Below are positions 1,115 to 24,323 of a stretch of DNA of 64,000 nt, piece by piece. The position numbers and the translations under genes were made by a program. The notes under the pieces are model-generated. The model was given only the letters and a program-made list of their open reading frames with translations. It had not been told where the DNA came from and made no database searches. The stretch spans positions 1,414,730 to 1,478,729 of the forward strand of contig NZ_KE650771.1 in the NCBI RefSeq assembly GCF_000447295.1. Direction: 5' to 3'. The DNA comes from Fischerella sp. PCC 9431. GTDB taxonomy: Bacteria; Cyanobacteriota; Cyanobacteriia; Cyanobacteriales; Nostocaceae. How positions within the stretch are numbered: the first letter of the stretch is position 1; each line of letters begins with the position of its first letter.

Positions 1115-2170
1115 CTAACAACTAACTGCATTTAGTTGCTTGGCTGTTTCAAAGAAGAAGGCGACATTTTCTTCAGGGGTTTCGGGGAGAACACCGTGAC
1201 CAAGGTTAAGGATGTGACCCCAATTACCAGCTTTGCGAACTGTATCGATGACGCGATCGCGAATAAATTCTTTTGATCCAAACAATACACCAGGATCAAG
1301 ATTACCTTGCACCTTCATGTGTTTGCCCAATCTGGCGCGTGCATCTGCCATGTCTACTGTCCAGTCTACAGTAATAATATCCGCACCGGATTTTGCCATT
1401 CTTTCTAGCAAACCTGCACTACCACTAACTAAAAGAATTAGCGGTGTATCTGGATGAGTTTCCTTAACTTTTTGGAAAACTTTTTGCTGATAAGGTAAAG
1501 CAAAAGTGTCATAATCTTGGGGACTTAATTGTCCTGCCCAAGAATCAAACATTTGCACAACTTGCGCGCCGCAGTCAATTTGATAGCGGACATAGGTGGC
1601 GATCGCATCTGAAAGTTTTTCGAGAAACTGATGCAGAACTGTCGGATCAGAAAACGCCATATTTTTAATAATGGAATAGGTTTTAGAACCTTTTCCTTCT
1701 ACGACGTAAGCTGCTAAAGTCCACGGCGCACCAACAAACCCCAACACCGTTGATTTATTGCCCACTTCTTGGCGCAGTGCTTGCAATATAGTTTTGATAA
1801 ACGGCAGAGATTTTTCCGGTTCTAAGGGAAGCAGGTTGTCAACTTGTGCTTGGGTGCGGATGGGAGATTGAATAATTGGCCCTTTACCTTCCGCAATATC
1901 CATCTCTATGCCCAAACCAGGCAACGGTGTAACGATATCAGAAAATAGAATTACACCATCTGGTTGAAAAGCCCGCCAGGGTTGCAAAGAAACTTCGATC
2001 GCAACTTCTGGAATTTCAGATCGTTCACGAAACGAAGGGTATTTCTCCCTTAAATCCCGATAAGCTTTCATATATCGTCCTGCTTGTCGCATCATCCATA
2101 CTGGCGGACGATCTACAACTTCACCACGAGCTGCTCTAAGGAGAAGAGGATCACTAGAGGAAATACCCAT
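1115..2170 (-). CDS. hemE: Uroporphyrinogen decarboxylase
   Basis: HemE removes four acetate carboxyl groups from uroporphyrinogen III to give coproporphyrinogen III, the branch step towards haem and chlorophyll, in the cytoplasm. The product (351 aa from the chosen start) has the signature [14 protein letters not shown] at residues 21-34 and the invariant catalytic Asp in LFSDIVTP (D78). The length is normal for the family. I chose the ATG at 2168-2170, preceded by an AGGA-type ribosome site, rather than the TTG two codons upstream, because family members begin MG(I/V)SS. It is divergent from the CHAT gene at 2440. Identification is firm. Confidence 0.97.
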
Positions 2171-2439
2171 TAACAACTCATCCTAAACTCTTTATTTATG
2201 TCATTGTTTAGCTTATCATTCTGCTTTGCGGTTTTTCAGACAGTTTACCTGACCAAGTAGAAATCACTAGGCAAAAGTCTTTGTTGATCAGGTTTCATTT
2301 GTTTTTAAATGCATAATTTGGTCTAAATATACCAATTAGATAGTATAGAACACTCGAAGTAGATCTGAAGTCGGAAGACAATAAGAAAAAAGAGGAAAGA
2401 AGTTTTTCCTTGATTGGTTTATGAAGGCTACTTAGCAAT

Positions 2440-3474
2440 ATGAAAAAAATCTTAATATTAGCAGCTAACCCAAAGGATACAAGCTCTTTACGTCTGGGTG
2501 AAGAAGCACGAGAAATTCAGGCGGCGCTGAAGCGATCCAAAAATCGAGAGAATTTTGAAATCTTTACGGAATGGGCAGTGCGAGTTGATGATCTGCGCCG
2601 TGCATTATTGGATCATGAGCCGACGATTGTGCATTTTTCTGGGCATGGGTCAGGAACTACTGGTTTAGTATTAGAAAATAACCTTGGGCAAATGCAATTA
2701 GTTAGTACAGAATCTCTAGCAAGGTTATTTAAATTATTTCAAAACAAAACAGAGTGTGTTTTGCTCAACGCCTGCTATTCAAAAGAGCAGGCTGACGCGA
2801 TTTATCAACACATAGACTATGTGATTGGTATGAATCGAGCTATTGGAGATATAGCTGCAATTCAGTTTGCGGTTGGATTTTATGATGCGCTTGGGGCTGG
2901 GAATTCCTATGAAAATTGTTTTGAAGTGGGTTGCACTTCTATTGATTTAGAAGGGATTCCAGAGTCAGATACCCCAGTTATGAAAGCTAGACCACGTTTA
3001 AATTCTGTTTCTGTTCAGAAAGCAGAACTGAATAACAATATAGAGGCAAAAAATGAAAAACCATACTCTAGTGGTGGAATTTCTCAAAGTGTAAGTGGCG
3101 GCAAAATGTATGGTGGTATGCAGGCAGTACAAGGTAACTATAATCAACAAACTATGAGGATTAAAAATACGAATTCTGAGCATGAAAAACAGCTAAATCA
3201 ACAAGATGTTATGGAATTTTTGTTAAAAATTGAGCAATTAATTCAAGCAAATTCAGATTTGACAATAGCTATCAAAGAAAAATCACTCAGGTATTTAGGA
3301 GCAGCAAAAGAGGAAGTTAAATTAGATGAGCCAGATAAACAATTAATAGCAGGAACTTTGAAAAGAATGGCAGAAATATTAAAAATTAATTTAAATATAT
3401 GGGAAGATATTAAACAAATACTGTTAAAACTATCTGTTTGGCTGGATGTTGATAATAATTTCTTTAGTTTTTAA
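2440..3474 (+). CDS. CHAT-domain caspase-like protease with Gly/Gln/Asn motif and helical C-terminus
   Basis: Residues 1 to about 180 form a CHAT (caspase/HetF-type) domain. The predicted catalytic His is H69 in HFSGHGSG and the Cys is C112 in LLNACYS; the N-terminal ILILAANP strand is also typical. Residues 185-240 are a low-complexity linker ending in a Gly/Gln/Asn-rich motif, GGMQAVQGNYNQQ at 225-237. Residues 245-344 are predicted helical and match no family I can name. It is the first gene of a same-strand cluster, 13 bp before an nSTAND-WD40 gene that has a similar motif near its N-terminus. CHAT proteases are known effectors next to NLR-like sensors. Role as an immune or cell-death effector is inference. 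Confidence 0.85.
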   Translation: MKKILILAANPKDTSSLRLGEEAREIQAALKRSKNRENFEIFTEWAVRVDDLRRALLDHEPTIVHFSGHGSGTTGLVLENNLGQMQLVSTESLARLFKLFQNKTECVLLNACYSKEQADAIYQHIDYVIGMNRAIGDIAAIQFAVGFYDALGAGNSYENCFEVGCTSIDLEGIPESDTPVMKARPRLNSVSVQKAELNNNIEAKNEKPYSSGGISQSVSGGKMYGGMQAVQGNYNQQTMRIKNTNSEHEKQLNQQDVMEFLLKIEQLIQANSDLTIAIKEKSLRYLGAAKEEVKLDEPDKQLIAGTLKRMAEILKINLNIWEDIKQILLKLSVWLDVDNNFFSF

Positions 3475-3487
3475 CAGGAATTAATTT

Positions 3488-6400
3488 ATGAACCAGCCTC
3501 CACATTCAGAAGATAATTCATCACTTGAGCAACAGCCAATTCTTCAGCAGCAGGTAGAAAACGCCACATTGGGTGGTGGAATCCAGGCTATTCAAGGTGA
3601 AAGAAATATTCAGTTCCAGGGTGATAGCAATGTTGTTACCCTCAACCAAACTCAGATTCTGCAAATATCTGTCGAAGAGATTAAAACCCGCGAATTTATA
3701 GAAACTTCACCCTATAAAGGGTTAAAGAAATTTGAATCAGAAGACAAAGATTTATTTTTTGGGCGTGACCAATTTCTTACGGGTTTAGTCAATGAACTAG
3801 AACAAACTAACCTAATTTTACTTTTAGGGGCCAGTGGTAGTGGTAAGTCATCGGTTGTTCGAGCAGGGTTGATTCCTTGGCTGTCGCATAAATGGCGATC
3901 GCATTTAGTCCATCTGATATTTACCCCAGATAGCGATCCTTTTGAATCTTTTTATGCCAGTTTACTTGGAAAATATAAACAAGCAGAAGCCCAAATTGCT
4001 CGTGAGGCGAAAGCTGGGACACTGACTCAGGTTGTAACTAAGCTCAAGCAGTCTGATGATTATTGGTTCATCTTTATTGATCAATTTGAAGAGTTATTCA
4101 CTATTAGTCAACCAGAAAAACGCGACGAATTTATCCACAGCTTGGTGCAATTGAGCAAAACCAAGCAGCCTGGTGTCAAAATTATGGCAACGATGCGGGC
4201 TGATTTTTTGGATCGCTTCAATCCCTATCCTCAATTAGTCAAGGCTACAGATAAACATCGTCCGTTGATAGCTCAGATGCAAAAGGATGAATTGCGGTTG
4301 GCGATTGAACAGCCTGCTGCTCAACATGGAGTAGTGTTTGAAAAAGGATTAGTAGAAGAAATTATCGAAAATGTCCAAGGACAAGCTGGATGTTTACCAC
4401 TACTGCAATACACACTGAATTTGCTGTGGGAAACAGAAGTTAAAAATGGTGACATTCAAGACCGCACTTTAAATATTAATACTTATCGGCGATTGGGCGG
4501 TGTGCGGGGAGCGCTCCATCAACGGGTTGAAGAAATTTATCACGACTTGACAGAATTTGAGCAACTCAGTGTCCAGCGCATCTTTTTAAAGTTAGTGGAA
4601 ATTGGCGGTGATGAAAAGTCGGGAACAGAGTGGAAACCTCTCCGTAGAAGAGCGATGCAATCTGAGTTTAACGACCCACTCGAACAAAAAGTCTTAACTG
4701 AGTTGATAGATCAAAACCTGTTAGTGAGTGATTACCAACCTCAATCACAAGCATCGACAGTAGAAATTAGCCATGAGGTCTTGCTCACCTCTTGGACACG
4801 CTTAAATGACTGGATTCATGAAAACCGTCAAGCGATCGCTCTGCGTAATCGGTTAAATGAAGATGTCGCACAGTGGCATACTACTAAAGCAACTGATGAA
4901 CTGTGGAGTGGTTCCAGACTAGAACGAGTTTTAGAACTCAGACGCAATGAAGCATTTAATCGTGTTTTAGGTGGATTTAGTGACGAAGCGAATCAATTTA
5001 TAGATGCTAGTGTAGGACGACGCGATCGCCAACGTCGCCGAAAAATAATTAGCTTATCTGTGTTTTCTACTGTAGCCCTAGCACTAGCTGCTTTTTCCAC
5101 TATTCAATACTACAGAGCTGAAACAGGTCAGATTACTGCTCTGCGACAAACCTCAGAAGCTCGTTTCACCAGCAACAGAAATACGCTAGATGCTCTGTTG
5201 GTTGGCTTGGATGCAGCTAATCGCTTGCAATCATCAATTTGGAGCAGTTTCAATTCCCAAATACAGGCTGATATGAGTGCAACTTTGGGGGAAGCAGTCT
5301 ACTGGACAAGGGAGCGTAATCGTTTAGAAGGACATAAGAATATTGTGCAGAATATCAGCTATAGTCCAGATGGCAAGATGTTTGCAACAGCCAGTTTTGA
5401 CAACACAGTCAAGTTGTGGCGTCCTGATGGTAGTTTCATCACAACTTTAGCAGGACATACGCAGCCAGTGATGAGCGTCAGTTTTAGTCCAGATGGCCAG
5501 ACAATTGCTTCTGCTAGTCAGGATGGAACAGTCAAGCTTTGGGATCGCAACGGTAAATACAAACAGACTATCAATGCTCATAGTGATGGGGTGACAAGTG
5601 TCCGCTTCAGTCCCGATAGTCAAGCGATCGCCACTGGAAGTTACGATCAAACAGCGAAACTGTGGAGTCTTGATGGTAACTTACTCGCCATACTTCAGGG
5701 ACATAATGGAGCGGTAAGACAGGTAATTTTTAGCCCCGATGGAAACCGGATTTTTACCTTCAGCGAGGACAACACAATCAAGCTGTGGACGCGAACTGGA
5801 AAATTTCTCAAAACTCTCACTCAACATACTGGTGCTATCAAGAGTGCAGATTTTAGCCGAGATGGTCAATTTTTTGTGACTGCTAGTTTAGATAAAACAG
5901 TCAAGCTGTGGAATCAAGAAGGTCAACTCCTAAGAACTCTCAATCATCCTCAAGAGGTATGGAGTGTCAGTATCAGTGATGATGGACAAAAAATTGCTTC
6001 TGGTAGCGCGGATGGAACTATAAAACTTTGGACGCGAGATGGGAGCTTAATTGATACATGGACAGGTCACGACGGATTGATCCCCAGTTTAGATTTCAGC
6101 CCAGATGGAAAGATCCTGGCGACTGGTGGTAATGATAAGTTTACGAAACTCTGGCAAGTAAATCGAAGTTGGTTGACTGTTTTAGCTGGTCACCAAGACA
6201 AAGTAATTAGAGCTAAGTTTACCCCAGATGGTAAGCGAGTAGCCAGTGTAGGCACTGACCAAACTTTAAAGTTTTGGAGTCTACAAGGTAAGCTACTCTC
6301 CAATCATAAAGAAGATCAAGACATTATTTACAGCCTTAGCTTTAGCAAAGATGGAACAATTGTCACTGCTGGCGAAAAGGGAATTATCAAACTTTGGAGT

Positions 6401-7120
6401 GCAGACACAAAAGTATCAAGAACTTTGGGGAGTCATCAAGACAGCATCAATGTTGTCACCTTTAGTCCTGATGGAAAAATTATTGCTTCTGCTAGTGATG
6501 ATGGAACTGCAAAGCTGTGGAATTTAAATGGTACAGTACGTCATACCCTCGGAGAAAAAAAAGACAGAGTATTAAGTGTCAGCTTCAGTCCTGATGGAAA
6601 AATTATTGCGACTGCGGGTGATGATCAGACAGTGAAGTTGTGGAGTCTAGATGGTCAAGAAATCAGAACTATTAAAGGACACATAGGCCGAATTTGGAAT
6701 GTCAGCTTTAGCCCAGATGGAAAAACAATTGCTACTGCTAGTGATGATGGAACTGCAAAACTTTGGAATTTAGAAGGGAAACTAATAGCAACGCTGGATA
6801 ACCATACTGCTGCGGTGCTGGGTGTAAACTTTAGTTCAGATGGAAAAATAATTGCGACTGCGAGTAGCGATCGCACTATCAAACTTTGGCGACAGGATGG
6901 AACTTTAATTACTACTTTGATTGGACATCAATCTGAAGTCAACGATGTGAATTTTAGTCCTACTAATGATCAATTATTAGCTTCTGCTGGCTTAGATGGA
7001 GTTGTATTGCTGTGGGATTTATCAGATATGAATTTGAAGGGATTGCAAGAAAAAGGATGCAGCCACGTTCGTGATTATCTTAAAACTCATCCAAATTTTT
7101 CACACAATTTCTGCAATTAA
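3488..7120 (+). CDS. nSTAND1-type NTPase with 14 WD40 repeats (NLR-like sensor)
   Basis: The 1210-aa product has four parts. Residues 1-60 are a Gln/Asn-rich leader with the motif GGIQAIQGERNIQ at 30-42. A novel-STAND ATPase starts at SPYKGLKKF (74), with Walker A GASGSGKSS at 114-122 and Walker B FIFIDQFEEL around 194-203. A single hydrophobic segment near 520-540 follows an RRR cluster and could be a membrane anchor. From about 610 there are 14 WD40 units, each ending in (K/L)(L/F)W, enough for two seven-bladed propellers. STAND ATPases with repeat sensors oligomerise on ligand binding and switch on a partner. Flanking genes encode a CHAT protease and a papain-like protease, which are the obvious partners. 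The ligand is unknown. Confidence 0.9.
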   Translation: MNQPPHSEDNSSLEQQPILQQQVENATLGGGIQAIQGERNIQFQGDSNVVTLNQTQILQISVEEIKTREFIETSPYKGLKKFESEDKDLFFGRDQFLTGLVNELEQTNLILLLGASGSGKSSVVRAGLIPWLSHKWRSHLVHLIFTPDSDPFESFYASLLGKYKQAEAQIAREAKAGTLTQVVTKLKQSDDYWFIFIDQFEELFTISQPEKRDEFIHSLVQLSKTKQPGVKIMATMRADFLDRFNPYPQLVKATDKHRPLIAQMQKDELRLAIEQPAAQHGVVFEKGLVEEIIENVQGQAGCLPLLQYTLNLLWETEVKNGDIQDRTLNINTYRRLGGVRGALHQRVEEIYHDLTEFEQLSVQRIFLKLVEIGGDEKSGTEWKPLRRRAMQSEFNDPLEQKVLTELIDQNLLVSDYQPQSQASTVEISHEVLLTSWTRLNDWIHENRQAIALRNRLNEDVAQWHTTKATDELWSGSRLERVLELRRNEAFNRVLGGFSDEANQFIDASVGRRDRQRRRKIISLSVFSTVALALAAFSTIQYYRAETGQITALRQTSEARFTSNRNTLDALLVGLDAANRLQSSIWSSFNSQIQADMSATLGEAVYWTRERNRLEGHKNIVQNISYSPDGKMFATASFDNTVKLWRPDGSFITTLAGHTQPVMSVSFSPDGQTIASASQDGTVKLWDRNGKYKQTINAHSDGVTSVRFSPDSQAIATGSYDQTAKLWSLDGNLLAILQGHNGAVRQVIFSPDGNRIFTFSEDNTIKLWTRTGKFLKTLTQHTGAIKSADFSRDGQFFVTASLDKTVKLWNQEGQLLRTLNHPQEVWSVSISDDGQKIASGSADGTIKLWTRDGSLIDTWTGHDGLIPSLDFSPDGKILATGGNDKFTKLWQVNRSWLTVLAGHQDKVIRAKFTPDGKRVASVGTDQTLKFWSLQGKLLSNHKEDQDIIYSLSFSKDGTIVTAGEKGIIKLWSADTKVSRTLGSHQDSINVVTFSPDGKIIASASDDGTAKLWNLNGTVRHTLGEKKDRVLSVSFSPDGKIIATAGDDQTVKLWSLDGQEIRTIKGHIGRIWNVSFSPDGKTIATASDDGTAKLWNLEGKLIATLDNHTAAVLGVNFSSDGKIIATASSDRTIKLWRQDGTLITTLIGHQSEVNDVNFSPTNDQLLASAGLDGVVLLWDLSDMNLKGLQEKGCSHVRDYLKTHPNFSHNFCN

Positions 7121-7183
7121 AATCGATAGCTAAATCTATTAATTACCAATAACAAATAACTTTAGTCAATGAGGGGAAAATAA

Positions 7184-9865
7184 ATGAAAAAGAAAGGAAT
7201 AGGCTGGATACCCGATTATCCTGATATCCATGATTACACTCTAGAGAATAAAGAAATTAAAAATTTAACAAGCAGAATTCAAAGTCAAGGAGATACTGCT
7301 TCGATAGAAGACTTGGCACAGAAAGTTTATGATATTTTGGGTATTTTGGCAGACAAACAAAAAGACGAAAAATTAACTCAACTTCAGGAAGAATTAGAAA
7401 AAGATATTCTGAGTGATTTTTATTTCGTCAACGTAGAACTTCACAAAATTCTCAGACCAGAAATGGCTGACCCAGAAGTTTTATTGATTAAAGATTATCT
7501 ACGGCGCATTATTCAGACATGGGAAAAATATTCTAAATCTGTAAAATATCAACCTGTAATTACCGATACTACATTTGATTCAATTACACACGAAATACTC
7601 AAAATAATCATAGCCGATCAAAAGCAACTATACAACGATGGTTGTGTAGGTAAAGATGATATGGAAGTTCTTAAGCAATTAGCAGAGTTAGCTTCTTATA
7701 TTGAAATTAACGAGAGTAAAGATATCAATTTCTTTCGTGATTGGACTCAAAAATGGCAAGAATATCTGAAACAATCTAAATCAAATAAAATTAATCAGTT
7801 TGAATTTGATGAACTGCTGATTAATCTTTTAATTAACCTTTTTGAACTTGCAGACGAATTATTTAATTTTTTTATATATCTATATGATTATGATGTTTGT
7901 AATTATTCAGGTTACCAATCTTCTAACTATAGTAGTTATACAAAATCAGTAGATACAAAAGAATCAGACAATATAAAAAGAATTCTAGAATGTATTAACA
8001 ATTTACAGAAAGTACAAAAGAAAATTAATCAGAATGATAGCAATTCATTTAAAATTGAATTTTCCCATATTCTAACTAAAAAAATTAATGAAGTCAAAAA
8101 AATCATCCAAGATGAAGATATTGAAATTAAAATTCAAACTAAAGATGATTTTGTGGTGATTTACGATAAAATTTATGAAAGTTACAAGTTTTTTAAGAAT
8201 ATAGTCAAAGAAGTTTATAAATTTTATCCACCACAAATTCCACCTCAGTTACTCAAAACAAAAAGAATAGAATTACCGATCATAACGCCAATACCAAATC
8301 CAGTATTTGAACTACTTGCTCAAAGCGTACTGAATCAAAAGACTTTAGAAACGGAGTATAGTCAATTACAGCCTAATCAAAATTCGCTTCGAGAATTCCT
8401 AAAACTACTTCAAGAGCAAGACAAACCAGTTCAGCAGCTAACAGAATCGATGATTGAAATGTTAGCACAGATGTTGATGCCATTGGGTCAGTATAGTAAC
8501 TTGAGTGAAACAGTAGATAGGGTACTCAAGAAAATTTTTGATTTTTTAGAAGCAGAACCAGCAGAAGTCAATAGAAGAAATCTGATTAGAGAAACCATTG
8601 AAGAATATAACCTTGGCAGAATCAAAGACTTTATCTTCATCGAAGAATTAGATTTTCAAAAAAATATATTACAATCACTGCAATTATTTACAAATGAAAT
8701 TCAATCAAAAAATGGTGAGGAAAAATTTTTACAGAAAACTAAAATATTTTCAGAAAAATTTCAAAATATCTTTGAATTATTACAGTCAAAAACGTTTTCA
8801 AGTTTTATAACCAATACGGAAAATGAGCCTTCTTATGTGTCTCAGTCAGAATATCGAAAAACGAAAACTCCCTTGTTTGAAATTTCCAATGGTGAGTTGA
8901 AAAGATTGAGGGTAATTAACCAGCAAAATAACTCAGTTCATGCAAATAATAATTCTTCTCAATCTATCAAAAATATTTTGCAGTTTCCAATCGGTCAGAA
9001 TCTCCGCACCTTGATTAAAAAGGAACTCGATAATCAAGAGGATGAAAAATTATTTTTATCTCTACCAGAATTTGTTGATTTAAGCTATTGGTGTTCGCCA
9101 ATTGAAGATCAGCGATCGCTAAATTCTTGTACTGCTCATGCTGCGATCGCTTTAATAGAATACGCTGAGAAAAAAAGTTCTGGTGTCTATATTGATGCTT
9201 CTCCTTTGTTTCTCTACAAAGTCACACGCAATCTTATGCAAAGAGAAGGAGATTCCGGAGCATCTGTACGCGACACAATGAAAACAATGGTTGCATTTGG
9301 AGTTTGTCCAGAACAGTATTGGACTTACAACGAAGATAAATTTGATGAGGAACCAACATCTTTTTGTTACTCTTTTGCCGAAAATTACAAAACACTCAAA
9401 TATTTTCGTCTAGACTATGGTCAAATCTCCAGATACACCCTACTTTCGCAAGTAAAAGTGTTACTTGCATCTGAATTTCCTTGTATATTTGGATTTACAC
9501 TTTATAATTCTGTCTACGATGAAGTCAATGTCCTCAAAGGACATATTCCCTTACCCAATGCTCAAGACAAAGTACTTGGTGGTCATACTGTGGTTGCAGT
9601 TGGTTACCATGACCGTAAGGTAATCACAAATTCTGATGGAAAGCAAACAAATGGAGCTTTGCTAATTCGTAATTCTTGGGGAACTGAGTGGGGTCAAGGC
9701 GGGTATGGTTGGCTTCCTTACGATTACATTATTGATGGCTTAACAGCTGATTGGTGGTCGCTCATAAAAGCAGAATGGTTGGCTACTGGACGCTTTGGCG
9801 CTGGAGCGAGTGCTTGGAACGCCGATAAAGGAGATCCAATTGGAAACCGAGGAAAGGGCCAGTAG
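7184..9865 (+). CDS. Papain-like (C1A) cysteine protease with a large helical insertion
   Basis: The last 280 residues of this 893-aa protein are a papain-fold protease. The oxyanion Gln is Q643 (IEDQRSLNSCTA), the nucleophile C649, the His H801 (LGGHTVVAVGYH) and the Asn N830 (IRNSWGTEWGQGGYGW). The N-terminus has GWIPDYPDIHDYT at residues 7-19, a motif that in ordinary bacterial C1A proteins sits close to the catalytic domain. Here about 590 residues separate them. They are rich in Lys, Glu, Asn and Ile, predicted helical, and encoded by AT-rich DNA. There is no signal peptide, so it is probably cytoplasmic. It follows the nSTAND gene by 63 bp and ends before a strong terminator, which supports one transcription unit. 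Function within the cluster is inferred. Confidence 0.85.
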   Translation: MKKKGIGWIPDYPDIHDYTLENKEIKNLTSRIQSQGDTASIEDLAQKVYDILGILADKQKDEKLTQLQEELEKDILSDFYFVNVELHKILRPEMADPEVLLIKDYLRRIIQTWEKYSKSVKYQPVITDTTFDSITHEILKIIIADQKQLYNDGCVGKDDMEVLKQLAELASYIEINESKDINFFRDWTQKWQEYLKQSKSNKINQFEFDELLINLLINLFELADELFNFFIYLYDYDVCNYSGYQSSNYSSYTKSVDTKESDNIKRILECINNLQKVQKKINQNDSNSFKIEFSHILTKKINEVKKIIQDEDIEIKIQTKDDFVVIYDKIYESYKFFKNIVKEVYKFYPPQIPPQLLKTKRIELPIITPIPNPVFELLAQSVLNQKTLETEYSQLQPNQNSLREFLKLLQEQDKPVQQLTESMIEMLAQMLMPLGQYSNLSETVDRVLKKIFDFLEAEPAEVNRRNLIRETIEEYNLGRIKDFIFIEELDFQKNILQSLQLFTNEIQSKNGEEKFLQKTKIFSEKFQNIFELLQSKTFSSFITNTENEPSYVSQSEYRKTKTPLFEISNGELKRLRVINQQNNSVHANNNSSQSIKNILQFPIGQNLRTLIKKELDNQEDEKLFLSLPEFVDLSYWCSPIEDQRSLNSCTAHAAIALIEYAEKKSSGVYIDASPLFLYKVTRNLMQREGDSGASVRDTMKTMVAFGVCPEQYWTYNEDKFDEEPTSFCYSFAENYKTLKYFRLDYGQISRYTLLSQVKVLLASEFPCIFGFTLYNSVYDEVNVLKGHIPLPNAQDKVLGGHTVVAVGYHDRKVITNSDGKQTNGALLIRNSWGTEWGQGGYGWLPYDYIIDGLTADWWSLIKAEWLATGRFGAGASAWNADKGDPIGNRGKGQ

Positions 9866-9891
9866 GTAAGCTAGTAAACTAATGATATACT

Positions 9892-9921
9892 AACCCGGCT
9901 TCTGTGAAAAGCCGGGTTTTT
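9892..9921 (+). terminator. Rho-independent terminator of the CHAT-nSTAND-C1 cluster
   Basis: A perfect 10-bp stem, AACCCGGCTT at 9892-9901 with AAGCCGGGTT at 9909-9918, closes a 7-nt loop and runs into a T-tract. It lies 26 bp after the stop of the papain-like protease gene. Confidence 0.9.
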
Positions 9922-10024
9922 GCATAGTATAAATTTTTCTTAAAAACGCCTGTATTTTTTCTATTTATCTTGATTGTATTTGACTTTGAGCTTTTATACT
10001 TAGATAATTTTGAGCTAAATTATC

Positions 10025-10786
10025 ATGTGGACAGAATCGAGTAAATCTAATACGCCTTCTGAAGAGGCTGTTGTTTTTGATGCTATTAAAGTACAGAAAC
10101 TTTTAATACCGCGATCGCAGCGACGTAAATTTTTTCTCCAATTTACTGTGATGACTTTCACGGGATGGGTTGTAGGAGGAATTACTAGTATCGCCTTAGA
10201 AAATTACTTCCTGCAAATACTCCCGCCTGCTGTACTTCAACAACAACCTTCATCCTATGGATTGGTAAAATTTATAAGTAGTGTTGTTTTTGCAATAATT
10301 TTCGCTGTCGATCAAGCACTTGTCCTGCGCCGGTATTTATCTGCATGGTGGTTGTGGGTGCTTGTTACCAGCTTTGGTTGGTTGGTTGCTAATCATGTCT
10401 CTACAGCATGGATTAACTATATTTCATCAATAGCTCACTCTTTGAATAAAACTTTATCTCTTGAGGATGTAATATTTTTTGGAGGTTTATCAACCCTCTG
10501 CTATGTTTTATCTGGAATTTGGATAGGATTTATCCAATACCTAGTATTACGATGGCATACAGCAGGTGCTTGGTGGTGGAATTTTCTGCCTTCATTTTCG
10601 CATTTGTGCATCAGTATCTTTGTCGGACTGCTTTCTTGTTTACAAGAGCTAATTCCAGTAGTCAGTCGCGCTCAGATATTCTATTTAAGTGGACAAGCAT
10701 TGACCGCAATCATTTTAGGAGTGATTCCAGCCATCGGCTTTTGCAGGTTGAAAATTGACTCCCGTCGTATGATTGCATCAAAGTAG
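10025..10786 (+). CDS. Multi-pass membrane protein of unknown function
   Basis: The 253-aa product has about six hydrophobic segments, near residues 40-65, 80-95, 105-125, 150-175, 185-205 and 220-240. Aromatic pairs such as SAWWLW and AGAWWWNF sit at segment starts. I do not recognise a named family, although Trp-rich multi-pass proteins of this layout are common in filamentous cyanobacteria. No catalytic motif is visible. It starts at an ATG 100 bp after the terminator of the protease cluster and ends 24 bp before the ptrB start, so it may share a transcript with ptrB. Confidence 0.7.
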   Translation: MWTESSKSNTPSEEAVVFDAIKVQKLLIPRSQRRKFFLQFTVMTFTGWVVGGITSIALENYFLQILPPAVLQQQPSSYGLVKFISSVVFAIIFAVDQALVLRRYLSAWWLWVLVTSFGWLVANHVSTAWINYISSIAHSLNKTLSLEDVIFFGGLSTLCYVLSGIWIGFIQYLVLRWHTAGAWWWNFLPSFSHLCISIFVGLLSCLQELIPVVSRAQIFYLSGQALTAIILGVIPAIGFCRLKIDSRRMIASK

Positions 10787-10810
10787 TTGCAGCAAACTCA
10801 GGTGATTAAT

Positions 10811-12880
10811 ATGAACAAAATTGACTCCTCACATCCGACAGTTACTCCACCCGTCGCTGAAAAACAACCCCAGGTGTTAGAGTTGCACGGCGATAAGCGG
10901 ATAGATAATTACTTTTGGATGCGCGATCGCGAAGATCCGAAAACAATGGCTTACCTGGAAGCAGAAAATGCTTACACTCAAGCCAAGATGCAGCATACGG
11001 AAGCTTTCCAAACACAGCTATACGAAGAAATGCTGTCTCGAATTAAGGAAACAGACCTTTCCGTACCTTATCGTAAAGATGAATATTACTATTATTCGCG
11101 CACAGAAGAAGGTAAAGCCTATCCAATTTATTGTCGCAAAAAAGGCAGTCTTGATGCTTCTGAAGAAATACTCCTAGATCAAAATGAACTGGCTAAAGAC
11201 CATGATTTTTTCAGTATCGGAGTCTTACAAGTTAGCCCCAATCATCAAATATTGGCTTATTCAGTAGATACGACTGGTTCGGAAAGATATACGCTATTTT
11301 TCTTGGATTTAAATACTCGTCAAGTTTATCCTGAAAGTATCTCTGATACTTATTTTTCCTTCGCCTGGGCTAATGATAATCAGACGGTATTTTACACAAA
11401 ATTAGATGCTGCGAACCGTCCATATCAGTTGTTTCGACATACATTAGCAACAGATGCCAATGAAGATATTTTGATCTATCATGAACCAGATGATACTTAT
11501 TTTTTAGGAGTGGGCAAAACTCGTAGCCAAGCTTATATTTTGTTGAGTTTGGGGAGTCAAATCACCTCAGAAGTCCACTATTTAGATGCTAATCATCCTA
11601 CAGGAAACTTTCAGTTATTTTATCCACGAACTACAGGAATAGAATACGACATTGATCATCACAGTGATTATTTTTATATAGTCACAAATGAGCAGGCAAT
11701 TAACTTTAAGTTAATGAGAACTCCTGTAAACGCAACTAGTAAAGAAAATTGGCAAACTATTATTCCTCATCGAGAAGATGTGATGTTATCAGGAATTAGT
11801 TTGTTTGCTAATTATTTAGTGATTTACGAACGTCAAGATGGATTACCTGTTGCGAGAGTACAAAATCTCACGAATAGCAAAGAACATAATATTAATTTTC
11901 CTGAACCAACTTACTCATTTTTTGAAGGTAGTAATCCAGAATTTGACACCACTACTTTGCGAATACACTACACTTCTTTGATTACGCCACCATCTGTATT
12001 TGATTACGATCTAGAAACAAATGAGCGAGAATTGAAGAAAGAAACAGAAGTTTTAGGAGGCTATGACAGAACTCTGTATAACAGTGAAAAATTGATGGCT
12101 GTGGCTCTTGATGGTACACAAATTCCCATATCTATTGTTTATAAAAAGGGAATTAAAAAAGATGGCACAAATCCTTTGTATCTGACGGGATATGGTGCTT
12201 ACGGAGTAAATTCTTCAGCATATTTTTCTTCATCGCGATTATCTTTATTAGAGCGGGGAATTGTATTTGCGATCGCTCACATTCGTGGCGGTACAGAAAT
12301 GGGGCGCGAATGGTATGAAAATGGCAAATTTTTGCACAAAAAAAACACCTTTACAGATTTTATTGCCTGTGCAGAATATCTCATTTCTCAAGGCTGGACA
12401 ACAAATAATTCACTTACTATTTCTGGTGGTAGTGCAGGCGGTTTATTGATGGGAGCAGTAGTCAATATGCGCCCTGATTTGTTTAAAGTTGTAGTTGCGG
12501 ATGTCCCTTTTGTAGATGTAGTCACAACCATACTTGATACTTCCCTACCTTTATCAGCAATAGAATGGGAAGAATGGGGAAATCCTAATGATAAAGTTTA
12601 TTACGACTACATGAAATCGTACTCACCCTACGATAATGTCGAGGCAAAAAATTACCCAGACATGTTAATTACAGCAGGTTTAAATGATGCTCGTGTGAAA
12701 TATTGGGAACCTGCAAAATGGACAGCAAAACTCCGAGAACTCAAAACAGATGACAATATTCTCCTGTTGAAAACTAACATGGGTGCAGGACACAGTGGTG
12801 CATCTGGACGTTACGAAAGTTTGCGAGAACTTGCTTTTGAATACGCTTTTATTTTAGATAGGCTGAGTTTATCAGAGTGA
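10811..12880 (+). CDS. ptrB: Oligopeptidase B (prolyl oligopeptidase family S9A)
   Basis: This 689-aa serine peptidase cleaves short peptides after Arg or Lys. The N-terminal half is the beta-propeller, with the typical opening YFWMRDREDPKTMAYL. The C-terminal alpha/beta hydrolase domain has the nucleophile S541 in SGGSAGG, the acid D626 in LNDARV and H661 in AGHSGASGR. There is no signal peptide, so it is cytoplasmic. I chose the ATG at 10811; the frame is open eight codons further to a TTG at 10787 that overlaps nothing useful. The length is normal for the family. Confidence 0.95.
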   Translation: MNKIDSSHPTVTPPVAEKQPQVLELHGDKRIDNYFWMRDREDPKTMAYLEAENAYTQAKMQHTEAFQTQLYEEMLSRIKETDLSVPYRKDEYYYYSRTEEGKAYPIYCRKKGSLDASEEILLDQNELAKDHDFFSIGVLQVSPNHQILAYSVDTTGSERYTLFFLDLNTRQVYPESISDTYFSFAWANDNQTVFYTKLDAANRPYQLFRHTLATDANEDILIYHEPDDTYFLGVGKTRSQAYILLSLGSQITSEVHYLDANHPTGNFQLFYPRTTGIEYDIDHHSDYFYIVTNEQAINFKLMRTPVNATSKENWQTIIPHREDVMLSGISLFANYLVIYERQDGLPVARVQNLTNSKEHNINFPEPTYSFFEGSNPEFDTTTLRIHYTSLITPPSVFDYDLETNERELKKETEVLGGYDRTLYNSEKLMAVALDGTQIPISIVYKKGIKKDGTNPLYLTGYGAYGVNSSAYFSSSRLSLLERGIVFAIAHIRGGTEMGREWYENGKFLHKKNTFTDFIACAEYLISQGWTTNNSLTISGGSAGGLLMGAVVNMRPDLFKVVVADVPFVDVVTTILDTSLPLSAIEWEEWGNPNDKVYYDYMKSYSPYDNVEAKNYPDMLITAGLNDARVKYWEPAKWTAKLRELKTDDNILLLKTNMGAGHSGASGRYESLRELAFEYAFILDRLSLSE

Positions 12881-12912
12881 AATACTACTTAATCGACGCA
12901 GGTGAAGGCGCA

Positions 12913-13194
12913 ATGTCTCAGCAGTATTCAATTGATCAGGTTCCCGTGAACCTCGACACAATTTTTCAGGAAGTTGAACAAGGTAAATCAGTGCAAATTA
13001 CGCGATCAGGGCAGCAAGTTGCTGTTATTCTGTCTGCGGCTGAATACGAACGTTTGCTGTCTAGAAAATCACGTTTTTGGGAATCTATAGAGCGATTACG
13101 TGAAGAAATGGTGGAAGAAGGAACCGAGATTAATCCCGATGAGGTTTGGCAAAATGTACGCGACAAGTCACCTGGACGTAAGGTAATCTTGTGA
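12913..13194 (+). CDS. Phd/YefM-type antitoxin
   Basis: The 93-aa product from the ATG at 12913 has the Phd/YefM N-terminal fold: a strand (QVPVNLDTIF), a helix, then QITRSGQQVAVILSAAEYERL. This is the DNA-binding and dimerisation part. The C-terminal tail would wrap the toxin. The start has the purine-rich AGGTGAAGG just upstream; a GTG at 12877 overlapping ptrB is also in frame but less likely. Its stop overlaps the GTG start of the PIN toxin gene by 4 bp. Such pairs normally repress their own promoter. Confidence 0.88.
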   Translation: MSQQYSIDQVPVNLDTIFQEVEQGKSVQITRSGQQVAVILSAAEYERLLSRKSRFWESIERLREEMVEEGTEINPDEVWQNVRDKSPGRKVIL

Positions 13195-13607
13195 CTCGCT
13201 TTTTACTTGATACTAACATCATCTCTGAACCGTTAAGACCGCAACCGAACACAGCAGTTATCCAAAAATTGCACCAGTATGAGGAGGACATTGTCATTGC
13301 ATCCGTTACGTGGCACGAACTGTTGTTTGGTTGCTATCGTCTACCTGCTTCTAAAAGGCGAGACAGAATTGAGCTGTATCTTAAGGAGATAGTCCAGCCA
13401 AATATTCCCATCCTAGCTTATGATGAGATAGCATCTGAATGGTTTGCTTTGGAAAGAGCGCGATTAGTGAAGATAGGAAAAACTCCCGCATATTCAGATG
13501 GACAGATTGCCGCGATCGCTAAGGTAAATGCTCTGACTTTAGTGACGAATAATGTGTCAGACTATACCGATTTTCAAGAACTTCCAGTAGAAAACTGGTT
13601 TATTTAG
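13191..13607 (+). CDS. VapC-type PIN-domain toxin ribonuclease
   Basis: The 138-aa product is a PIN domain. Acidic metal ligands are visible: D7 in LLDTN, E43 in WHELLFG, D103 in YSDGQIAA and a C-terminal N120/D124 in VTNNVSDYTDF. PIN toxins cleave RNA and are held inactive by the cognate antitoxin, here the gene immediately upstream. Translation probably starts at GTG 13191, coupled to the antitoxin stop. All four acidic positions are present, so the toxin looks intact. Confidence 0.9.
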   Translation: MTRFLLDTNIISEPLRPQPNTAVIQKLHQYEEDIVIASVTWHELLFGCYRLPASKRRDRIELYLKEIVQPNIPILAYDEIASEWFALERARLVKIGKTPAYSDGQIAAIAKVNALTLVTNNVSDYTDFQELPVENWFI

Positions 13608-13617
13608 GAGAATTATC

Positions 13618-14961
13618 TTAACCATGAGTACGATTTTTGTTGTTATCCCAAATCAAATCTAAACGTTCTTGAGCAGTTTTGAGGGCTTTTTCTGGAGATT
13701 CACCCAATAAAGTAGCCTCAATTGCTCTCCCTAAACTATCAGAAAGACGGCTATAACCAGCAATAATCGGTCGAGCGCGTGCTACAGACACTTGCTCTAA
13801 AAACATTTTTAACACTGGCTTTTGCTGAAGAAATTCTTGAAAAGCTTGACTTTGAGCAGATTTAATGTTCACAGGTAAAAAACCTGTGCCAATACTCCAC
13901 TCAGTTTGAAATTCTTCACTCAAGACGTATTCCAAAAACTTAAATGCTGCTTGCTCCCTTTCTGGCGTGGTTTTCATGACAAACATATTTCCTGTACCTG
14001 TGACTGTAGCTTGTTCAACTTCCCCAGGTATGGGAAATACATCAAAATCGACATCAGATTTCATAATATAAGTCCAAGGGCCAGTAATCTGCATCGCCAC
14101 TTTACCAGCGATAAAATTATCTTCCTCATAACCGCGTTCTGGTGCAGATAATTTGGCTGAACCATCTTTCATTAAATCTTGCCAGAATTGTAAGGCTGCG
14201 ATCGCTCCTTGGTTCAGCAAATCTGGGTGATTATCTTTGACAATCTCTCCCCCCGCACCTAATAAAAAGGGAAACCAACTAAATACAGTCCATTCTCCCT
14301 TTCCCAAAGGTAATAACATTCCGTATTGTTCGGGACGTTTGTCACCATTACGATCTATAGTTAATTTTTTCGCAACTTGGCGTAACTCTTCCCAAGTTTT
14401 TGGTAGTTCAGTTATTCCCGCAGCTTTAAATAAATCTGGTCGATAAAAAATCCCCATATTGCTGGTATATAAAGGGATTGACCAAGTTTGACCATTTAAG
14501 CGCAATTCTTCAAATAAACTGGGGAAAACTTCTGACTTTATAGGCGATTTTTCAAGCCATTCATCTAAAGGTTGAATTGCTCCTAATTCTACAAACTGAC
14601 CTGTAACTTGGGGGTAGAATGTCAGAATATCTGGAGGTACATTACCCACAACTGCTGTTAATACTTTTGGTAATCCCTCTGCATAGACAGATTCGACTTT
14701 GATATCAGTATGAGTCTGATTAAATTTATTTACCAGCTTTTGAAAAACATCGCGATTTGTCGGCGGATTGATTGACTGCCATAATGTCAGATGAATAACT
14801 CCAGTGTCTTTAGCTGCTGGTTTCTGACAGCTAGATAATACCAGACACAAACTCAGGATAATTCCCAAAACGAGAGCTTTCCTAGCGTAGCTGGTTAATT
14901 GGTGAAAAAGTTTTTTGATGTGCGATCGCAAAAGCAAAATGATAATATTCATGCCAAGCAT
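13618..14961 (-). CDS. ABC transporter sugar-binding lipoprotein (family 1 solute-binding protein)
   Basis: The product has a lipoprotein signal with lipobox LSSC (modified Cys about C45), followed by a family-1 extracellular solute-binding domain. That domain has the typical HLTLWQ opening, PPDILTFY in the first lobe and TGPWTYIM in the hinge region. It would capture a sugar or oligosaccharide outside the cytoplasmic membrane for an ABC importer. No permease or ATPase gene is adjacent, so the transporter partners are elsewhere. The n-region before the hydrophobic core is unusually long (about 28 residues), so the true start may be internal; an ATG at 14952 is three codons in. It abuts the glycosyltransferase stop. 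Confidence 0.88.
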   Translation of the reverse strand: MLGMNIIILLLRSHIKKLFHQLTSYARKALVLGIILSLCLVLSSCQKPAAKDTGVIHLTLWQSINPPTNRDVFQKLVNKFNQTHTDIKVESVYAEGLPKVLTAVVGNVPPDILTFYPQVTGQFVELGAIQPLDEWLEKSPIKSEVFPSLFEELRLNGQTWSIPLYTSNMGIFYRPDLFKAAGITELPKTWEELRQVAKKLTIDRNGDKRPEQYGMLLPLGKGEWTVFSWFPFLLGAGGEIVKDNHPDLLNQGAIAALQFWQDLMKDGSAKLSAPERGYEEDNFIAGKVAMQITGPWTYIMKSDVDFDVFPIPGEVEQATVTGTGNMFVMKTTPEREQAAFKFLEYVLSEEFQTEWSIGTGFLPVNIKSAQSQAFQEFLQQKPVLKMFLEQVSVARARPIIAGYSRLSDSLGRAIEATLLGESPEKALKTAQERLDLIWDNNKNRTHG

Positions 14962-15624
14962 TTAGCTAGATGAAGAAATTTTTTCTATAACACTCTTAGT
15001 AATACTGGTTTCAGCTCTTGTATAAACGTAAGTTTCTGGTTGAGTTACTTTTTGAGTTTTAAATAATTTTACCGCTCGATGCCAAAAATCTGTATCTTCG
15101 CCATAAGCAATATTTTCAAATCCCTGTAAATCCAAAAATACTTCTCTTTTCCCAAAAAAGGTCGGACCAAGAACACATTCACGCAAATTAATTGTTTTCC
15201 CCGGTTGAAAATAATCCGCTACAAAAATTTCTTCTTCTGTAAAAAATCCCCCTTCGATTAAATCAATATGGGGATTCGCTTTCATAAATTCTAGTCTTGA
15301 CTCTAAATGATTTGGTTTGTAGACATCATCACTATCAATGAATGTTATATATTTGCCAAATGAATTTTTAATTCCAATATTTTTAGAGTATGCAAGTTTC
15401 CGATTTTGATGTTTTATATAACGAATTTGTCTAAATTTTTGTAGATAGATATTGACTATTTCAAAACTATTGTCTTGACTACCATCATCTACTATAATCA
15501 GTTCCCAATCTTTAAATGTCTGCTCAATCACACTATTAATGCAATTATTTAAGTATTTTTCTCGATTATAAGTACAAAGGATAACTGATATTTCAGGAAT
15601 TAAATCAAAAAGCACATTACTCAT
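14962..15624 (-). CDS. Family 2 glycosyltransferase
   Basis: A GT-A fold is clear: SVILCTYNREKYL at residues 13-25, VDDGSQDNS at 45-53 and the metal-binding DSDD at 97-100. A C-terminal GEDTDFWHRA motif (about 177-186) provides the catalytic base region. At 220 aa it is a minimal family 2 enzyme with no membrane segment. It transfers a sugar from a nucleotide sugar, but donor and acceptor are unknown. It is directly upstream of, and adjoining, the solute-binding lipoprotein gene, suggesting co-transcription. Confidence 0.9.
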   Translation of the reverse strand: MSNVLFDLIPEISVILCTYNREKYLNNCINSVIEQTFKDWELIIVDDGSQDNSFEIVNIYLQKFRQIRYIKHQNRKLAYSKNIGIKNSFGKYITFIDSDDVYKPNHLESRLEFMKANPHIDLIEGGFFTEEEIFVADYFQPGKTINLRECVLGPTFFGKREVFLDLQGFENIAYGEDTDFWHRAVKLFKTQKVTQPETYVYTRAETSITKSVIEKISSSS

Positions 15625-23354: not shown

Positions 23355-24323
23355 ATGGAGTCACAGGTGACTAGTAACAATAATGACATCTTCTCTGTTG
23401 CAGGGGAAGTAATGATCCCACAGTCTCCTCCTGGTTTTAAATCAGGTTTTATCGGTATTGTTGGTCGTCCCAATGTCGGTAAATCTACGTTGATGAATCA
23501 ATTAGTAGGACAAAAAGTAGCCATCACTTCACCAGTCGCCCAAACTACACGCAATCGATTGCGGGGTATTTTAACCACAAAAGAGGCACAATTAATTTTT
23601 GTGGATACACCAGGAATTCATAAACCTCACCATCAATTGGGTGAAGTGCTGGTGCAGAATGCCAAAATCGCGATTGAATCTGTGGATGTAGTGCTATTTG
23701 TGGTTGATGCTACAACAATTTGTGGTGCAGGCGATCGCTACATTGCTGATTTGCTGAGTCGCAGCAGTACACCCGTAATTTTGGGTTTAAACAAAATCGA
23801 TCAACAAACAGCAGATTCTCTAGATATAGATGAAAGTTACACCGAATTGGCAAATACTTATGAATGGCAAACAGTAAAATTTTCTGCCAAAACAGGTACA
23901 GGATTGGGCGAACTACAGCAATTACTGATTCAAAATCTAGAACCAGGTCCTTACTACTATCCTCCTGATTTAGTCACAGATCAACCAGAACGCTTTATTA
24001 TGGGCGAGTTGATTCGAGAACAAATTTTGTTATTAACCCGTGAAGAAATTCCCCATTCTGTGGCGATATCCATAGATAAAGTCGAAGAAACAACAACTAT
24101 TACCCGCGTACTCGCCACAATTCACGTCGAACGTGATTCTCAAAAAGGAATTCTGATTGGCAAAGGTGGATCAATGCTGAAAGCTATTGGTAGCAGTGCT
24201 AGAGAACAAATTCAAAAGTTAATTGCAGGCAAAGTTTATCTAGAATTATTTGTGAAAGTGCAAGCAAAATGGCGTCAATCTCGTATTCGTTTGGCAGAGT
24301 TGGGATATCGCGTGGAAGAATAA
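23355..24323 (+). CDS. era: GTPase Era
   Basis: Era binds the 3' end of 16S rRNA and is needed for small-subunit maturation. All GTPase motifs are present: G1 GRPNVGKS at 37-44, G3 DTPG at 84-87 and G4 NKID at 146-149. The C-terminal KH RNA-binding domain has KGILIGKGGSMLKAIG. The first 30 residues before GFIGIVGRPN are longer than usual and low in similarity, so a start at the ATG 23412 (M20) is an alternative. Identification is firm. Confidence 0.97.
   Translation: MESQVTSNNNDIFSVAGEVMIPQSPPGFKSGFIGIVGRPNVGKSTLMNQLVGQKVAITSPVAQTTRNRLRGILTTKEAQLIFVDTPGIHKPHHQLGEVLVQNAKIAIESVDVVLFVVDATTICGAGDRYIADLLSRSSTPVILGLNKIDQQTADSLDIDESYTELANTYEWQTVKFSAKTGTGLGELQQLLIQNLEPGPYYYPPDLVTDQPERFIMGELIREQILLLTREEIPHSVAISIDKVEETTTITRVLATIHVERDSQKGILIGKGGSMLKAIGSSAREQIQKLIAGKVYLELFVKVQAKWRQSRIRLAELGYRVEE

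Follow-up and report, generated by a model that had tools for sequence, protein, structure and literature searches.

NOD-like receptor (NLR)-associated bacterial amyloid signalosomes (BASS) were reportedly described by Dyrka et al. in 2020. The locus considered here, which encodes a CHAT protease, an nSTAND1-WD40 sensor and a papain-like protease, occupies positions 2440 to 9865 of a 64,000-nucleotide stretch of the Fischerella sp. PCC 9431 genome (contig NZ_KE650771.1, positions 1,414,730 to 1,478,729 of the forward strand; hereafter the window), and resembles BASS in one respect, as its CHAT protein and the N-terminus of its adjacent NLR-like sensor carry the same short motif. In the available part of a commentary on BASS, neighbouring NLR and effector genes have such a motif in common, CHAT and TIR effectors are mentioned, and the hosts are filamentous actinobacteria and cyanobacteria (PMC7889193). 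Unlike BASS as that part presents them, the trio system has a third constant gene (the papain), a sensor with a predicted transmembrane (TM) anchor, and a slot that can be filled by TIR or AAA_35.

Other described systems hold further pieces, as far as the accessible sections of their accounts go. The EAD/TRADD-N and VMAP conflict systems also have matching adaptors on sensor and effector, swapped effectors, caspases and STAND NTPases, with papain appearing there only as an EAD1-linked peptidoglycan peptidase or a BTLCP domain (PMC7159879, PMC8195603); the listed Pfam matches of the trio and of the two genes that come next (for the sensor, the best 25 of 76 families) include neither MoxR nor vWA. 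Cyanobacterial caspase-WD40 proteins join a caspase-type protease to WD40 repeats, two of them with NACHT, but differ from the trio system in that the word papain is absent from the accessible text (PMC2853523). Short C1A peptidases of the xylellain type (3ois; PMC10380794) resemble the third protein in core, catalytic residues and N-terminal strip. The pieces are known, and a papain with a TM-WD40 sensor was not met in the literature found, including the available parts of PMC7159879, PMC8195603, PMC7889193, PMC10907252, PMC2853523 and PMC10380794; no title or abstract opening naming papain beside WD40 or STAND sensors was found either, a weak absence as subscription papers lay outside the search. 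On balance, we lean towards reading the locus, from its sequence and that of its relatives, as one form of a modular, membrane-anchored, NLR-like signalling system with a constant core of TM-WD40 sensor and xylellain-type papain.

Layout of the locus

All three open reading frames (ORFs) lie on the forward strand, at 2440-3474 (CHAT, 344 aa), 3488-7120 (sensor, 1210 aa) and 7184-9865 (papain, 893 aa), and their coordinates bear out an earlier sequence-only reading that had reported three same-strand genes separated by 13 and 63 bp. Pfam identifies CHAT in the first product (E 2.8e-12), nSTAND1 (E 3.7e-112, 376 bits) and WD40 (E 2.4e-145, 467 bits, 14 stretches) in the sensor, and Peptidase_C1 in the third product (E 1.4e-10). 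The residues which that reading had called intact are all present, namely H69 and C112 of CHAT, Q643, C649, H801 and N830 of the papain, and the sensor Walker A (GASGSGKS at aa 114, within the nSTAND1 domain at aa 75-469, 3710-4894). With 14 blade ends in its WD40 region, the sensor has the architecture of a STAND/NLR-like receptor, a STAND NTPase with intact Walker A followed by a repeat sensor. The terminator said to close the cluster corresponds to a terminator-like hairpin and U-run after the papain gene (9892-9921, forward strand; -17.2 kcal/mol, z -3.7), equalled in folding by 1 of 200 shuffles; a simple terminator scan did not have this hairpin among its matches. Three features taken up below go beyond the earlier reading: a predicted TM helix between nSTAND1 and WD40, a motif common to CHAT tail and sensor N-terminus, and a conserved strip at the start of the papain.

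The sensor and papain as a constant pair

The papain carries a conserved N-terminal strip, GIGWIPDYPDIHDY (GIGWIPDYPDIHDYTLEN at 7196-7249), which in the window stands ~600 residues from the catalytic core (9047-9766), across an insert (7250-9043) that is predicted to be mostly helical. It has the core and the catalytic Q, C, H and N of xylellain-type C1A peptidases; it lacks their short form, in which strip and core lie side by side. Strip-to-core spacing is 334-886 residues in such long papains versus ~33 in short relatives, and the long ones further differ from short xylellain-type C1A peptidases in having a WD40 sensor as neighbour. Fold matches to the papain model span mainly residues 625-869, outside the insert.

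In the search for relatives, the papain protein matched 75 of 388 genomes of the order, an 11-row papain alignment 91 of 388 genomes of the class, and the CHAT protein 176 of 217 genomes of the family. A 27-row alignment was run against 84,980 species genomes, where 562 of 581 stretches encoded a relative and the best 80 were kept; a first scan of genome contigs with the window papain as sole query matched no relative. The better matches were fetched with their surroundings (60 stretches for papain, 20 for CHAT), and counts omit shorter fetches (loci L001-L030 and L071-L130) and ORFs below 80 aa. The 143 core-bearing ORFs represent 120 distinct papain cores (47 long or split-long, 73 short), with only exact or contained copies merged and close strains counted separately; L066, whose papain is too broken to show the core, lies outside the 47. 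Domains of relatives were called with small hidden Markov models (HMMs) built from few members, with a Pfam check on a subset. Carriers of long papains include Scytonema hyalinum, Nostoc, Fischerella, Leptolyngbya PCC 7375, Planktothrix PCC 11201, Nodosilinea and Stenomitos.

A co-directional WD40 gene is the immediate neighbour in 45 of the 47 long-papain loci, with the papain directly after it in 42 (median gap 75 bp) and before it in 3. In the remaining two, the papain follows the WD40 gene past an 82-aa opposite ORF (L192) or lies at a contig edge (L204). Such a neighbour should be rare by chance because the listed WD40-repeat matches of the source genome (8 contigs, 7.17 Mb; at least 150 matches) occupy only ~28 ORFs by our own count; the same genome has one match to the papain protein and 22 to CHAT. 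Sensor and papain distances are also correlated over 43 loci (Mantel r 0.787; maximum of 2000 permutations 0.251). Near-constant adjacency and correlated distances rule out the papain as a stray neighbour. The sequence-only reading was to be abandoned if C1 genes occurred mostly without the sensor; all 46 long C1 genes that can be judged have one, whereas the short ones mostly do lack it.

The association of short papains with WD40 genes is looser, with 8 of 73 convergent to a caspase-nSTAND1-WD40 gene. These form a second papain class of 305-459 aa (L045, L046, L061, L202, L206, L209, L210 and L222; several in Nostoc), L206 lying beside a WD40 fragment; a ninth short papain near a WD40 gene (L140) is a long form cut by a contig edge. 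Elsewhere, a short xylellain-type papain (L049, 8797-9243) has a gene for a chagasin-type (I42) inhibitor directly upstream, and in L056, L057 and L058 a short papain, perhaps a leader protease, adjoins a lanthionine synthetase-like gene (DUF4135 and LANC_like domains).

Topology of the sensor

The WD40 repeats are immediately preceded by the protein's most hydrophobic 19-residue stretch in 43 of 45 sensors; the other two, L131 and L172, are cut by contig ends. In the window this stretch is a predicted TM helix at aa 520-538 (5045-5101), with seven K/R in the preceding 12 residues and one after it, and K/R are commoner before than after the helix in 40 of 43 sensors. There are 11 Cys among the 24,876 residues of the WD40 parts, against 148 among the 18,219 residues N-terminal to the helix. 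Because a hydrophobic helix precedes almost Cys-free propellers, the WD40 propellers (in the window, 14 Cys-free repeats and a tail at 5345-7117) are probably extracytoplasmic or periplasmic, unlike those of a cytosolic NLR. After the helix, 44 of 45 sensors have 2-4 Cys, mostly a C-terminal-tail pair like Cys1191 and Cys1209 of the window, which may form a disulfide.

Other WD40 proteins of the source genome serve as a control. Five without a helix (L263-L266) hold 13-17 Cys in 538-601 WD40 residues, and L267 holds 19 in 538; those with a helix and an nSTAND1 or MID segment (L257, L258, L268 and L270) hold 0-1. An automatic TM/no-TM split of these proteins (10 versus 14) gives 0.66% versus 1.55% Cys, a crude division that by our reading misplaces L267 and L268.

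A variable front end with matching adaptors

The element preceding this pair varies. Among the 47 long-papain loci there are six with CHAT in trans, ten with a small gene of 160-209 aa, sixteen with a fused TIR, four with TIR-nSTAND1 and a separate caspase-TIR gene, one with a fused caspase, and ten of unknown class or at a contig edge. In the fused-TIR sensors the small HMM detects no NTPase, except in the second sensor of L133, where the papain gene is flanked by two TIR-WD40 sensor genes (5806-15086). Parsimony gives 8 changes of class on each of the two trees, of sensor and of papain (37 classified loci), compared with a mean of 18.5 and a minimum of 14 after shuffling.

The sequence-only reading had treated the three genes as a unit. 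The CHAT-sensor-papain order does recur, in 6 of 47 long-papain loci including the window, one of them (L136) outside the order Cyanobacteriales in a genome of the same class, and it is seen in L066 with a broken papain gene; CHAT is not constant, and a fixed conserved unit of three genes is ruled out. Nor does CHAT hold to the pair: 11 of 20 fetched CHAT relatives directly precede an nSTAND1-WD40 gene, with a papain too in 2 of 20. The rest have other genes beside them; L160 stops at a contig edge, and in L162 the sensor is on the opposite side of CHAT. The layout of two cysteine proteases with one sensor, which that reading had singled out, reappears as papain plus CHAT or caspase in 11 of 47 loci (6 + 4 + 1).

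Where the front end is CHAT, effector and sensor match in a motif. The window CHAT protein has GGMQAVQG at aa 225 (GGMQAVQGNYNQQTM, 3112-3156) and the sensor GGIQAIQG at aa 30 (GGGIQAIQGERNIQF, 3572-3616), a motif that looks akin to RHIM/BASS3. Between loci the motif differs, and within a locus CHAT tail and sensor N-terminus resemble each other; the CHAT loci have GGMQAVQG-type (the window and most others), SIGNITISGNSN-type (L136) and NRSVSIGG..SAI..GDSN-type (L170) motifs, and most of the small proteins in the CHAT place have a VGGDFQIGG.GVTVDMSQ-type motif. Aligned with each other, the two motifs of a locus outperform 500 shuffles in 20 of 22 cases (p <=0.006; window p 0.002), and the own pairing among nine representatives was equalled by 3 of 100,000 permutations. 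Behind the motif, the helical C-terminal tail of the window CHAT (3163-3471) is related to the tail of these small proteins: window-type CHAT tails match it with 88.7% probability over 55 columns, and the L136 tail is 56% identical to it. In L185 and L188 it is AAA_35 that occurs in both effector and sensor genes, and in L038 and its relatives TIR in both caspase gene and sensor. Because effector and sensor genes match in motif, TIR or AAA_35, the rule read from these sequences is that effector and sensor carry the same socket, which different adaptors fill.

Proposed mechanism and alternatives

A scheme can be built on the observed gene linkage, module swapping, motif matching, conserved active sites and sequence signs of membrane topology, to which we add by inference a ligand, clustering, amyloid-like assembly, zymogen release and cell death. 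The propellers, on the periplasmic side if the topology is as predicted, would meet a ligand; cytoplasmic nSTAND1 would then switch and cluster, as expected from its family, and the clustered sensor N-termini would seed or recruit CHAT through the matching RHIM/BASS-like motif, with proximity activating CHAT. The cytoplasmic papain, restrained by its insert and strip, would be released or cut at the sensor, and the freed protease could act as the common output by attacking the cell's own proteins. At other loci TIR, AAA_35, a caspase or a small tail-domain protein would do the recruiting; the gene organisation shows these parts being exchanged around a retained sensor-papain pair. In its fullest form, which we think less likely than not, the system would be a death-receptor-like transmembrane NLR: WD40 propellers sense an extracytoplasmic signal and fire a dedicated papain zymogen inside, a socket taking interchangeable adaptors (RHIM-like motif, TIR or AAA_35) brings in CHAT, caspase or other effectors, and here two unrelated cysteine proteases form a cascade.

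Several observations weigh against the modular system or this fuller form of it. The papain is dispensable, as its gene is split or truncated in 6 of 47 loci, broken in L066, and missing from L152 at a site otherwise syntenic with L153. Periplasmic propellers and a cytoplasmic papain leave their meeting unexplained, and a general CHAT-to-papain cascade is impossible because there are TIR-only sensors without detected NTPase, CHAT or caspase. The idea of an active site plugged by the N-terminal strip is unsupported by the model (strip pLDDT <50). As to topology, K/R are commoner after the helix in L192 and L194 and equally frequent on both sides in L037; three own-genome WD40 proteins are Cys-poor without a detected helix (L260, 2/551; L261, 3/751; one L257 ORF, 0/531). 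The motif pairs of L156 (p 0.076) and L031 (p 0.148) are weak, only 3 of 9 rows of the nine-by-nine table have the own sensor on top, and 6 of 22 sensors, of the same motif type, outscore the window CHAT tail's own sensor (rank 7 of 22); a single motif type common to many sensors speaks against a one-to-one code.

Other explanations are less probable. Sensor clustering might activate CHAT (or TIR, or caspase) and papain independently, with no mutual cutting, which we regard as possible though doubtful; the papain is retained with fused-TIR front ends, and this account meets no direct counterpoint, but it leaves the long strip-core insert unexplained. A regulatory role for the papain, in which it trims or sheds the sensor or clears assemblies without being an executioner, is unlikely: it would fit the close tracking of sensor by papain and the loss of papain beside a remaining CHAT and sensor in L152, but 9 of 11 co-directional CHAT-sensor pairs among the fetched CHAT loci persist without it. 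Avs and bNACHT systems are a precedent for cytosolic bacterial NLRs that sense phage proteins. An ordinary receptor of this kind, its hydrophobic helix buried instead of spanning the membrane, would suit the nSTAND1-plus-repeat architecture and the three Cys-poor proteins without a detected helix, but the hydropathy and charge patterns (43 and 40 sensors), the near absence of Cys and the Cys-rich propellers of the five helix-less control proteins make it distinctly unlikely. We give very little credence to a papain that reaches the envelope and acts on wall-linked proteins through PG_binding_1-like modules; PG_binding_1 does match inside the insert of L032, L038 and L043, and the sensor propellers are probably periplasmic, but the N-terminus has no signal peptide by eye, none can be hidden upstream because a stop codon directly precedes the papain ATG, and each long papain has 5-17 Cys.

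Genomic context

The sequence-only reading had asked whether the module lies in a defence island, and the window gives this no support: ten other ORFs scanned with PADLOC-DB yielded a weak LeoBC/LeoA hit at 23355 and no clear defence gene. Within the trio, CHAT matches the chat model (E 7.5e-17) and weaker models, the sensor matches HEAT-ARM_XIII over its WD40 part, and the papain has no PADLOC-DB match. Two small overlapping genes at 12877-13607 look by eye like a Phd/VapC toxin-antitoxin pair, with no PADLOC match. A hemE gene stands near the module in two cyanobacterial families (window 1115-2176; L033 2825-3910; protein 75% identical), possibly by chance.

Spread by plasmids was rejected, as 19 of 72,556 plasmid records match, in the core only and none covering 80% of the query. 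Neither flank of the module (1000-2440 and 9860-10100, each searched against itself) holds a repeat of at least 14 bases. A 75-bp stretch, 84% identical between L152 (3631-3705) and L153 (10194-10268), is found on opposite sides of the module in the two strains, after it in the first and before it in the second, and may record a past movement of the module.

Implications

The persistence of the papain with its receptor despite a swapped front end suggests a plug-and-play bacterial alarm or cell-death circuit. If true, bacterial NLR-like switches can span the membrane, reading the periplasm or neighbours instead of the cytosol, and a papain protease would accompany such receptors repeatedly, irrespective of the adaptor in use. 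Matching adaptors make who signals to whom directly testable, and a caspase-like and a papain-like protease on one bacterial receptor would be relevant to the origin of protease-driven cell death.

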